Assembly: GCF_001562055.1 (NCBI RefSeq)
Contig: NZ_LLWE01000024.1
Location: 124,001 to 188,000, forward strand
From: Polycladidibacter stylochi
GTDB lineage: Bacteria > Pseudomonadota > Alphaproteobacteria > Rhizobiales > Stappiaceae
Direction of reading: 5' to 3'
DNA: 64,000 nucleotides
The notes under the pieces are model-generated. The model saw only the letters and a program-made list of their open reading frames with translations, was not told the DNA's origin and searched no databases. Positions 7,485 through 53,379 of this stretch are shown in pieces (position 1 is the first letter of the stretch; each line of letters opens with the position of its first letter). Made by a program: the position numbers and the translations under genes.

Positions 7485-8279
7485 ATGCTCTTTCTCCGCT
7501 CACTTGTCTTTAACCTGTTGTTTTACGTAGGCACTCTTGTAATTATGATCCTGCTGTCGCCCGTTTTCCTGTTGCCAAGAAAGTGGGCTTACAAAGTTGT
7601 TCCAACATGGTCTTACTTTAACTTTTTCTTGCTGCGCTACATTTGCAATGTGAACTCAGAGGTTAAGGGGTGGGAAAATATCCCAGAAGGTGGCTGTATC
7701 ATTGCCGCAAAGCACCAGTCCGCTTGGGAAACATTTGCGCTTTTTCCAGGCTTGAGTAACGCAACATTTATTCTAAAGGCAGAGCTAAGGAAAATCCCGC
7801 TTTTTGGCTGGTACATTTGGAAACTAAAACAAATTCCGGTCAATAGGGGCCGCAAAGGGGTCGCATTGGCACAAATGAGCCAGAAAGCCAAAGAGGCTAT
7901 AGCGGAAAGCCGTCAAATTATCATTTTTCCAGAAGGTACCCGCCGGCCAGCAGGAGCCGAACCAAAGTATAAATACGGCATTGTTCACCTATATAAAACA
8001 CTTAACTGCCCTGTTGTGCCCGTTGCTTTAAACTCGGGTGTCTATTGGCCACGCAGGCGTTTCTTCCGCCTACCGGGAACAATAACAGCCCAGATACTCC
8101 CTCCCATACAGCCTGGCCTTGAGCCTGAGGTATTCTTAAAGACCTTGACCGACAAAATTGAAACCGCCTCAAATACACTTTTTGACCAAGCGGCAGAAAA
8201 GACTCCTGATAATTTTATCGTTAAGGAAGCTCTTGCAAAACGCAAGTTGAATTCAGGAAATGGCGAAAACATAAATTAA
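7485..8279 (+). CDS. plsC: 1-acyl-sn-glycerol-3-phosphate acyltransferase
   Basis: Acyltransferase of phospholipid synthesis that adds the second acyl chain to lysophosphatidic acid at the inner membrane. An N-terminal hydrophobic helix spans about residues 9-30. Motif I is H77-QSAW-E82, that is HX4E instead of the textbook HX4D, and motif III is FPEGTRRP at 148-155. The substrate-positioning segment LRKIPLFGWY lies at 101-110. Length of 264 residues is normal. It follows the YdcF-like gene by 61 bases in the same direction and closes the ftsE-ftsX-ydcF-plsC series. The glutamate in motif I is a conservative change, and I expect the enzyme to be active. Confidence 0.9.
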   Translation: MLFLRSLVFNLLFYVGTLVIMILLSPVFLLPRKWAYKVVPTWSYFNFFLLRYICNVNSEVKGWENIPEGGCIIAAKHQSAWETFALFPGLSNATFILKAELRKIPLFGWYIWKLKQIPVNRGRKGVALAQMSQKAKEAIAESRQIIIFPEGTRRPAGAEPKYKYGIVHLYKTLNCPVVPVALNSGVYWPRRRFFRLPGTITAQILPPIQPGLEPEVFLKTLTDKIETASNTLFDQAAEKTPDNFIVKEALAKRKLNSGNGENIN

Positions 8280-8369
8280 TTCAAGCTTCAGGCAGGAAAA
8301 ATAACGTTTACTATTCTTTAATTATGGTTAATAATAATTAAGTGAACTTGTTTTGTTCCAAAAAGTGCC

Positions 8370-8397
8370 TTGATTCGAGTTCTCTTTTTGTTCTAAT
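8370..8397 (+). promoter_or_regulatory. Promoter with an embedded LexA (SOS) box
   Basis: GTTC-N7-GTTC occurs at 8379-8393 and is the consensus operator for LexA in Alphaproteobacteria. It sits between a -35-like TTGATT (8370-8375) and a -10-like TCTAAT (8392-8397, five of six bases matching) with a 16-base spacer, so bound LexA would block the promoter. A second, inverted pair GAAC-N7-GTTC lies just upstream at 8344-8358. A strong AGGAGGG ribosome site and ATG follow at 8422-8433. The box match is exact; actual LexA control is inferred. Confidence 0.75.
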
Positions 8398-8432
8398 CTC
8401 GATTCATACGCACGACGAAACAGGAGGGAACG

Positions 8433-8813
8433 ATGCAGCCTGTTGTGTTGGAGTTTGAGCCGATTGGGAATGCCGCCGTTCGTGTGGTTGAAGAGCTTGG
8501 TTTGGGCGAGCGCTTTCGCTACTGGCATGGCGAAAGCGGTAAAAAGTATTTGTTCACCCAGAGTGAACCTGAAGCCTTGGTTGATTGTCCATCAGCTGTG
8601 GTTCTTATTTGTTGCCCACAAGATGATTACCGCGTCGTATGGCTTGGCGAAAGCGCATCGGGCGACTTTCAAAACTGGAGCCCGACACCGGACGATCTTG
8701 ACCATGTGCGTTTGTATGCACACTTCCTTGCCGTTGATTCCAAATCCAGGCAAAAAGCACTCGATGATTTAACTGCAAAGCTGCATTGTAACGGTGACCA
8801 ACAAGCAGCCTAA
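8433..8813 (+). CDS. Small protein of unknown function, likely SOS-induced
   Basis: I do not recognise this 126-residue protein. It is soluble, mildly acidic, with no signal peptide or membrane helix. It has a W-H-G-E-S-G-K-K segment near residues 34-42, a CPSAVVLICC core at about 52-61 with three cysteines, and a helical C-terminus ending in a polar tail. Translation signals are strong (AGGAGGG seven bases before the ATG). The only promoter visible upstream carries an exact LexA box, which places the gene in the DNA-damage response. It stands alone between plsC and chaC, pointing the same way as plsC but separated by 153 bases. Function cannot be assigned. Confidence 0.75.
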   Translation: MQPVVLEFEPIGNAAVRVVEELGLGERFRYWHGESGKKYLFTQSEPEALVDCPSAVVLICCPQDDYRVVWLGESASGDFQNWSPTPDDLDHVRLYAHFLAVDSKSRQKALDDLTAKLHCNGDQQAA

Positions 8814-8842: not shown

Positions 8843-9367
8843 TTACCGGCGTAAATTATTGACGATCCAAGCGAGATCTTTATCGATAATACCCAACTCT
8901 TCCATGTGATTATAAGTATTAATCACGTACACATCGTTCTCACCTGACTGCCCCTTAGCTGCTTGTACAATCTCAAGCTGCTCTTCTAGGCTCAGTTTTT
9001 GCGCATATTGCTCATGGTCTTGATCGGCCACAAAGCTGAGGGCCTCAACTCTACGCGGACCATTTTGCGATATCTCGACCGGTGCTAGAATTTCCTTATA
9101 AACCATCGTTTGCTGTTCACGCGCACGCAGGTACGTAGTTGTCTTATCAACAAGCTCACTTCGCACACGAAAAGCCATACCTGCACAGTGCCCACCTTCA
9201 TCAAGTCCAAACACCAAGCCGGGTTTCTCCTGTGTGCCTCTATGGATCCAGGAATAAATGCAAAGCGATCGATGAAAACCAACAAGAGTGGCTGGTATGG
9301 CCTCTTCAAACTCAAATCCGGGTTGCCACATAAGCGATCCATATCCAAAAACCCATAAATCTGACAT
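8843..9367 (-). CDS. chaC: ChaC-type gamma-glutamylcyclotransferase
   Basis: Enzyme that cleaves glutathione to 5-oxoproline and Cys-Gly in the cytosol. The family signature VFGYGSLMW is at residues 6-14 and the catalytic glutamate lies in YLRARE (E84). The 174-residue length matches short ChaC enzymes. The start was set at the ATG at 9367; the frame is open for 34 more codons upstream, but those would overlap the start of the divergent DUF2125 gene and contain no family sequence, whereas the chosen start has AGGA about 12 bases upstream. The product should act on glutathione, which is abundant in these bacteria. Confidence 0.88.
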   Translation of the reverse strand: MSDLWVFGYGSLMWQPGFEFEEAIPATLVGFHRSLCIYSWIHRGTQEKPGLVFGLDEGGHCAGMAFRVRSELVDKTTTYLRAREQQTMVYKEILAPVEISQNGPRRVEALSFVADQDHEQYAQKLSLEEQLEIVQAAKGQSGENDVYVINTYNHMEELGIIDKDLAWIVNNLRR

Positions 9368-9460
9368 ATGCGTATAATTCCTGTAAAATAACTGTTGCCG
9401 ATCGCCTAACAGGATGCCAAAGCTCTTGCAACTTGATTTGTTAAAACGATTGGAGCACTC

Positions 9461-10480
9461 ATGGGGCATGTGAATACTACAGCCAAAAAGAGCACTAAAA
9501 AATATTACATTCTCGCTGGTATCATTGCATTTATTGCCTTTGCTTGGGCTATGGTCTGGGATTTTGGTCGTGGTGCGATACGCGACTTTTTACGCAATGG
9601 CATCGCAGTTGCTGCCCAGCAGGGCACCAACATTAACTGCGGCGCACAAGACATAAGTGGTTTTCCTTGGAAGTTTGAATTAAACTGCACGCCGCTAATT
9701 ATTGATAGTAAAGATATAAAGCTGGACTTATCGCAACTCACTGCAACCGCCTTAGCCTATAATCCCGGTCACATTATTGTTGCTTTACACTCACCATTTA
9801 GCACTTCAATTGCCCATGCGGGAACCACAATCACTGCAAACTGGCAAGAGGCACTAACCAGTGCACGTGCAACGACGGAAGGCATTACCCAGTTAGATAT
9901 TGATATTAATCGGCTGAAAGCCAAAATCACCACTTCAGACTTGCCAATTCACTTTTCTGTCGCTTCAGGCGAAGTCCATCTACGCGAAACAAAAAATGAG
10001 CAAGATCTGGAAGCCGCAATCGTTGCCAACGCAGCTCGGCTAGATGTATTGCCCTTTAACAGCCCTATGGACATAACATCACGTATTGTTCTTAAAAGTG
10101 GGGCAAACATCATTAAGAATAAGCCCTCTTCGCTAGAAGCACTATTACAACATGGTCCGCTAACATTCGTTATAAAGCAGCTCAACGCCAAAGTGGACGG
10201 AGTCTCGTTTAAAACCAGCACGGCACTCCGTCTAAACCCGAATGGCTACTTGGAAGGTGACTTGCCACTCACCGTGACAGGCGCACAAAACCTTTCAAAC
10301 CTGCTCGAACCCTTGTTTCCAAGTGGCTCATCATTACCAAGCACCATACAAGCAGCGGCCATGGCCATTGGCACGACTGATAGCAATGGGCAGGTAACAG
10401 CTAACCTGCCAATATCCTATAGAAAAAATCGCGTATATCTTGGTTTTATTGACCTTGGACCGCAACAAAAACTGCTCTAA
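9461..10480 (+). CDS. DUF2125 domain protein
   Basis: Alphaproteobacterial envelope protein of 339 residues. A single hydrophobic helix at about 15-36 follows a short lysine-rich tail, so it is likely anchored in the inner membrane with the rest in the periplasm. The remainder is beta-rich with repeated short strands and alternating polar and hydrophobic residues, consistent with DUF2125. Two cysteines (in NINCGAQ and ELNCTP) may form a disulfide. The family has no known function. Start ATG at 9461 has GGAG six bases upstream. It is transcribed divergently from chaC with 93 bases between the starts. Confidence 0.8.
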   Translation: MGHVNTTAKKSTKKYYILAGIIAFIAFAWAMVWDFGRGAIRDFLRNGIAVAAQQGTNINCGAQDISGFPWKFELNCTPLIIDSKDIKLDLSQLTATALAYNPGHIIVALHSPFSTSIAHAGTTITANWQEALTSARATTEGITQLDIDINRLKAKITTSDLPIHFSVASGEVHLRETKNEQDLEAAIVANAARLDVLPFNSPMDITSRIVLKSGANIIKNKPSSLEALLQHGPLTFVIKQLNAKVDGVSFKTSTALRLNPNGYLEGDLPLTVTGAQNLSNLLEPLFPSGSSLPSTIQAAAMAIGTTDSNGQVTANLPISYRKNRVYLGFIDLGPQQKLL

Positions 10481-53239: not shown

Positions 53240-53379
53240 TATTTTTTCCTAAATTTGCTTAAACTGATTCATTTTCAGGGGATCACGAAGCTACAAGGGG
53301 CGACGGAACCTATACACTGTTCTAGATTAGTTCAATATGTAACACAGTAGCTGCACCAATACGGTTCAGGGAGTTTTTC

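Follow-up and report, generated by a model that had tools for sequence, protein, structure and literature searches.

Does an exact LexA box in front of a small gene make that gene part of a DNA-damage response, and what would its protein do there? The question is raised by a 126-residue open reading frame in a 64,000-nt stretch of the Polycladidibacter stylochi genome (hereafter, the window). Most of what is known about the SOS response comes from E. coli and Caulobacter. A sequence-only reading of the window had drawn attention to the box and proposed a possible new SOS member, such as a small division inhibitor or a repair factor.

Promoter and gene arrangement

The open reading frame (8433..8813, plus strand) was preceded by a ribosome-binding site (AGGAGG, 8422..8427, plus strand) located five bases 5' of the ATG and, further upstream, by the LexA box GTTCTCTTTTTGTTC (GTTC-N7-GTTC, 8379..8393, plus strand). 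The box filled most of the 16-nt spacer between a predicted −35-like TTGATT (8370..8375, plus strand) and a predicted −10-like TCTAAT (8392..8397, plus strand), and its second GTTC shared two bases with the latter. The placement of the box in the spacer and over the −10, as claimed in the sequence-only reading, was thus confirmed in its coordinates and in the two-base overlap. The TTGATT/TCTAAT pair was not listed by a strict promoter scan because TCTAAT has no A at its second position.

The gene upstream (7485..8279, plus strand) encodes a PlsC-like acyltransferase (Pfam Acyltransferase), and the next gene downstream (8843..9469, minus strand) encodes a ChaC-like protein (Pfam ChaC) and is convergent; both are syntenic in related genomes. 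No second gene in the same direction lies between the 126-residue frame and the convergent gene, in line with the sequence-only reading. A gene for a DUF2125 protein follows at positions 9461-10480 of the window.

The LexA box in the source genome

The exact pattern GTTC-N7-GTTC occurred three times in the window against 1.05 expected (three or more in 9 of 100 shuffles) and 77 times in the genome against approximately 60 from the scaled shuffle rate of the window. It was not enriched genome-wide, and the reversed control pattern was commoner (231 sites). One site with identical flanks was dropped, and many of the 76 distinct sites that were analyzed lay within long open reading frames. Because the 77 exact sites are near the chance number, the single site in the window is weak evidence when taken alone.

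GTTC-N7-GTTC is given as the alphaproteobacterial LexA motif in passages of two papers (PMC12700426; PMC8565304). In the source genome, in which the search found one lexA, the exact box was located upstream of recA, lexA, uvrA, uvrB, dinB, and a second Y-family polymerase gene. As these genes are boxed and a lexA is present, GTTC-N7-GTTC is very probably the working LexA box in this genome. The 126-residue gene resembles the alphaproteobacterial LexA regulon, with its boxed recA, lexA, uvrA, uvrB, and dinB, in the box itself and in promoter logic.

Homologous loci and synteny

Searching with a single sequence recovered the gene from 31 of 61 genomes, its own included. A 14-row profile matched 218 of 397 genomes from the order, in 80 of 141 genera, with one copy per genome except for one genome with two, whereas in a sample of the class the family was found in only 7 of 385 genomes, again including its own. 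Because some ten candidates in each genome are scored in the searches of the order and the class, a genome with no match may still carry the gene. In a scan of named genomes, 29 loci were obtained, among them those of Pseudovibrio, Stappia, Prosthecomicrobium, Breoghania, Rhodobium, and Afifella. The aligned homologues were 14-44% identical to the window protein.

The conservation analysis used 93 loci, one per genome, which form a non-random set: 30 came from the single-sequence search, 14 from the profile search, and 49 were chosen from the listed matches with better scores, almost always one locus per genus, leaving out the weaker of the 218. Among the 93 loci, a PlsC gene was upstream in 50, a convergent ChaC gene was present in 64, a DUF2125 gene was downstream in 47, and a ribonucleotide reductase gene was upstream in 21 (including L218, L220, and L232; the upstream gene of L218 matched Pfam Ribonuc_red_lgC and TSCPD). 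At least one of these four syntenic landmarks was found in 78 of the 93 loci, all these counts being lower bounds with flanks of 1.5 kb. The synteny marks the homologues as orthologues.

Conservation of the box and variation of the promoter

In 78 of the 93 loci, representing 45 of 57 genera, an exact box lay within the interval from −300 to +10 relative to the domain start, and the boxed loci were spread across the tree. Mononucleotide shuffles of the upstream regions gave a box in 0.77 of 93 loci. The density near the domain start was 2.97 per kb (86 sites), as compared with 0.029 per kb (eight sites) in the remainder of the same loci. In the scan of named genomes, several of which are shared with the 93 loci, 26 of 29 loci carried the exact box. 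The commonest box letters in the homologous loci were GTTCTATTTTTGTTC. A box at the same place in 78 of 93 homologous loci is beyond chance, and homologues without the box, which the sequence-only reading had named as grounds for rejecting its proposal, were the minority. The exact box was absent in 15 of the 93 loci, some of which had one-mismatch forms (for example, ATTC-N7-GTTC in L016), and in the eight loci of a search for distant relatives (the source of L256-L260 and L263).

These counts also bear on the simplest alternative, in which the match to the box arose by chance or is neutral and an ordinary, constitutive gene follows it. The number of exact sites in the genome, about that expected, would allow this, but the retention of both box and position across the tree makes it very improbable. 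LexA control of the 126-residue gene is predicted with near certainty from the sequences compared here, which would place the gene in the LexA regulon of Alphaproteobacteria.

The box began exactly 17 nt 5' of the ATG in 29 of 77 loci, and TTGAC was present 12-22 bases before the box in 23 of those 29. Of all 77 related loci, 55 have TTG at a distance of 13-21 bases upstream of the box, and 32 have TTGAC. Because of the 17-nt spacing and the upstream TTGAC, this class suggests leaderless transcripts, in which the box would lie over the −10 and the start site and reach up to the ATG. In Pseudovibrio, by comparison, the −10 takes in the second half-site of the box, and the genus relatives have GTTCTATA or GTTCTAAA at the −10 position. 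As this arrangement differs from that of the 17-nt class, the box is constant while the promoter layout shifts.

An additional inverted GAAC-N7-GTTC noted upstream in the sequence-only reading is present (8344..8358, plus strand), but among 30 loci it was seen only in the window and in one sister genome (L010, as GATC-N7-GTTC). As it is not conserved, it was given no weight; it is probably non-functional or a half-site only.

The recA gene was used as a yardstick. An exact recA box was found in 10 of 14 genomes with a boxed family gene and in 4 of 13 with an unboxed one, in a set of 28 hand-picked genomes of which half were chosen for an unboxed family gene, so that the two genes cannot be ranked by these numbers. 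One of the 28 was dropped because its recA was cut, and G047, with only 271 bases before the motif, was counted as unboxed. In many of the genomes without an exact box at recA (among L264-L290), GTAC-N7-GTTC was observed approximately 290-300 nt before the recA Walker motif.

Protein sequence and predicted structure

The sequence-only reading could not assign the protein, and library searches led to the same outcome. The window protein had no Pfam match up to E 1 and only chance-level matches in NCBIfam and among PDB sequences, where SodC and an antibody, respectively, were rejected. Fourteen family members likewise gave only chance-level matches in Pfam and PHROG, and PDB sequence searches with the distant relatives L043 and L253 found nothing. 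In the 93 aligned sequences, D112 was invariant, and G33, S35, G36, Y39, G72, H97, and L113 were kept in at least 90%; G33, S35, G36, and Y39 are the residues of a hairpin (GxSGxxY).

AlphaFold2 predicted a compact alpha/beta domain for the window protein, in the order helix, strand-strand, helix, strand-strand, short helices, strand, and long helix. The two models agreed in topology, with a pLDDT of 83 when 14 sequences were used and 73 with 93, the deeper alignment giving the lower confidence. No membrane-like hydrophobic stretch was seen in the window protein by inspection. With a threshold of E 0.001, Foldseek returned no PDB match for either of the models and no viral-protein match for the first. 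The weak PDB matches included 2lwf (E 2.6) and 3oqg (E 0.93), which we take to be GIY-YIG structures; MutS ranked first and was rejected (TM of about 0.2 and rmsd of about 9).

Probable ancestry traced through bridging relatives

The family was connected to the GIY-YIG superfamily (PF01541; UvrC N-terminal domain, Cho, and Hpy188I-type enzymes) through ten bridging relatives (L043, L042, L253, L255, L256-L260, and L263), which were excluded from the family alignment; L042 and L043 came from the class search. Two members, L168 and L224, have a stop within the matched stretch and were left out of the residue counts, and 91 rows remained. Comparison by hhalign of the 91-row family with the bridge gave a probability of 98.4 (P 5.8e-15, 97 columns), a score that is partly selected, as the bridge proteins were picked by profiles holding family members. 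The bridge aligned to 31 GIY-YIG domains with a probability of 81 (P 1.2e-5). None of 60 column shuffles scored as high in either comparison.

The family has no direct significant profile or structure match to the superfamily: hhalign of the family against GIY-YIG gave a probability of 1, with 3 of 60 shuffles as high, and no GIY-YIG Pfam match relating them to Cho or UvrC was found in 14 family members up to E 5. The only PF01541 match of the source genome is at another locus than the 126-residue gene. In the bridge relatives, GIY- and YIG-like strands are seen, and several end in DLI..y.P..N. Nine bridge proteins were scanned against Pfam; GIY-YIG was the sole match of L253, L255, and L258, below its cut-off, and the other six had no match or chance matches only.

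By way of the bridges, the family resembles the superfamily in the register of the GIY strand, the YIG strand, and the last helix, and its predicted order of strands and helices would fit the GIY-YIG fold. It differs in an extra N-terminal GxSGxxY hairpin, and the window protein lacks both tyrosines, the arginine, and the glutamate. From these comparisons, the family likely descends from the GIY-YIG nuclease superfamily, and it is a probable derived relative of these nucleases rather than a member.

An origin from phages, plasmids, or defence systems was also considered and was rejected, since the phage, plasmid, viral-contig, PHROG, and PADLOC searches gave no meaningful match for the family. 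No tblastn match was found for the window protein in a phage collection, for the relative L028 in plasmids, for L043 and L253 in phages or plasmids, or for L043 in viral contigs. PHROG gave nothing below E 0.07 for 14 family members, and PADLOC gave no match for three. The bridge protein L258 matched the candidate-defence model PDC-S14 (E 0.0023). The one match of L043 in 200 genomes of the phylum lay within a 2514-aa frame and was dropped as unrelated. A distant relative from the class search (L040) matched Pfam Imm75, a putative immunity protein, below the cut-off (E 0.0019), a match that weighs against the GIY-YIG reading.

Active-site residues

In an alignment on L258, the GIY tyrosine, the YIG tyrosine, and the glutamate are replaced in the window protein by V57, W70, and L110, respectively, and the conserved arginine is missing (the arginine column is uncertain). 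By this alignment, it appears to lack the residues of an active GIY-YIG enzyme. Among the 91 members, the GIY tyrosine was kept in 15, the YIG tyrosine in 1, the glutamate in 22, and the arginine in 16 (with the same uncertainty of its column), and D112 was present in all 91. Tyrosine or phenylalanine was kept together with glutamate in 11 members, in which catalysis may persist.

Nine of these 11 members had no box, and 55 of the 60 members that lost both residues had one. In the tree, however, the catalytic state changes only twice and the box seven times, which leaves one or two independent pairs. Since the coincidence between the box and the lost residues goes back to one or two events, it was rejected as independent evidence.

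Proposed function and alternatives

We consider it fairly probable that this is a LexA-repressed SOS gene whose soluble product, of GIY-YIG derivation, most likely acts without cutting, and that, as part of the same reading, much of the order Hyphomicrobiales has this gene in its DNA-damage regulon. LexA bound to GTTC-N7-GTTC would cover the −10 and block transcription, and in many relatives it would probably also cover the start site up to the ATG. Following DNA damage, RecA-stimulated cleavage of LexA would release the promoter, as expected from established LexA biology. The product, judging from the profiles and the predicted model, would be a soluble domain of GIY-YIG descent in which an N-terminal beta-hairpin (GxSGxxY) was added before the strand-strand-helix-strand-helix core. 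It is held to be most likely non-cutting because the window protein, like most SOS-linked members examined, has neither the two signature tyrosines nor the metal-binding glutamate. During the SOS response, it may bind DNA that is branched or damaged, or else a protein of repair or replication; this is the least certain element, to which we give somewhat less than even weight when the rest is granted. A more specific version, in which a widespread, vertically inherited SOS effector with a retired GIY-YIG domain would steer excision repair, branched-DNA processing, or the replisome as a non-cutting binder, is offered tentatively; in this version, the domain would have retained its shape for binding DNA or a partner and acquired the hairpin, while most members lost the cutting site.

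The division inhibitors provide the other obvious comparison. SidA and DidA of Caulobacter and SulA of E. coli are small, SOS-linked, and lineage-restricted, and SidA and DidA are short membrane proteins. The window protein is alike in being small, SOS-linked, and lineage-restricted; it differs in having a GIY-YIG-like domain and no membrane-like stretch, and its searches against Pfam and NCBIfam gave no family match. It bears little resemblance to a small membrane division inhibitor, and a division inhibitor proposed from size alone was demoted to a rival after the links to GIY-YIG nucleases appeared. Of the earlier suggestion of a new SOS member, predicted membership in the LexA regulon is therefore supported, through the boxes of the homologous loci, while the division-inhibitor kind is not supported, given the predicted compact domain and its profile links; a repair factor is a possible reading of the product.

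A checkpoint protein that binds a protein target and so holds up division or replication would reach the outcome of SidA, DidA, or SulA with an unrelated build. It would fit the LexA box, the small size, and the fast drift of the sequence, and an ABC ATPase gene (Pfam ABC_tran), read as ftsE by inspection, lies upstream in the window; in the 21 loci noted above, however, a ribonucleotide reductase gene is upstream instead, and a structured domain with links to a nuclease superfamily is unlike the known inhibitors. We regard such a protein as unlikely. Slightly less likely still is an active SOS-repair nuclease similar to Cho, the SOS-induced GIY-YIG incision enzyme of E. coli, with an active site rearranged around the conserved H97 and D112. 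The ancestry, the retention of these two residues, and the 11 members with the tyrosine or phenylalanine and the glutamate would agree with a nuclease, and a Bacteroidetes GIY-YIG exonuclease with predicted LexA regulation is mentioned in a passage of PMC8565304. The substitutions at V57, W70, and L110 and the missing arginine (in its uncertain column) argue against cutting by the window protein, and D112 is present in all counted bridge proteins, including L258 with its intact-looking site, and is more likely structural.

If the preferred reading of a non-cutting GIY-YIG domain holds, this would be an example of a repair-nuclease fold that now serves as a binding factor controlled by LexA. 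The presence of a boxed gene in 45 of the 57 examined genera, and in none of the family libraries searched, suggests that the damage response of the order is in part undescribed. No description of the family was found in the literature searched, which left out most subscription papers, so that a prior mention is possible.

Other genes with an exact box

Several other exact boxes in the source genome were located near gene starts. Two overlapping boxes (three GTTC half-sites) lie directly before the second Y-family polymerase gene (Pfam IMS; L002:1501-1526, minus strand), and two overlapping boxes lie immediately 5' of a radical-SAM protein gene (L114:1274-1299), a possible further SOS gene. 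A box in reverse orientation (L120:1307-1321) is followed by a Nudix hydrolase gene whose ATG lies 17 nt from the start of the box, which is the spacing of the putative leaderless class of the family. Candidate SOS genes with an exact box upstream also included those for an exonuclease-III-like protein (Exo_endo_phos; L004), a helicase (AAA_30/UvrD_C_2; L091), and a small methyltransferase-like protein named by reading (L116). In the window, another GTTC-N7-GTTC (53319-53333) is located 61 nt before a 412-aa hybrid-sensor-kinase-like frame, which is divergent from a permease-like frame, both names being given by inspection.
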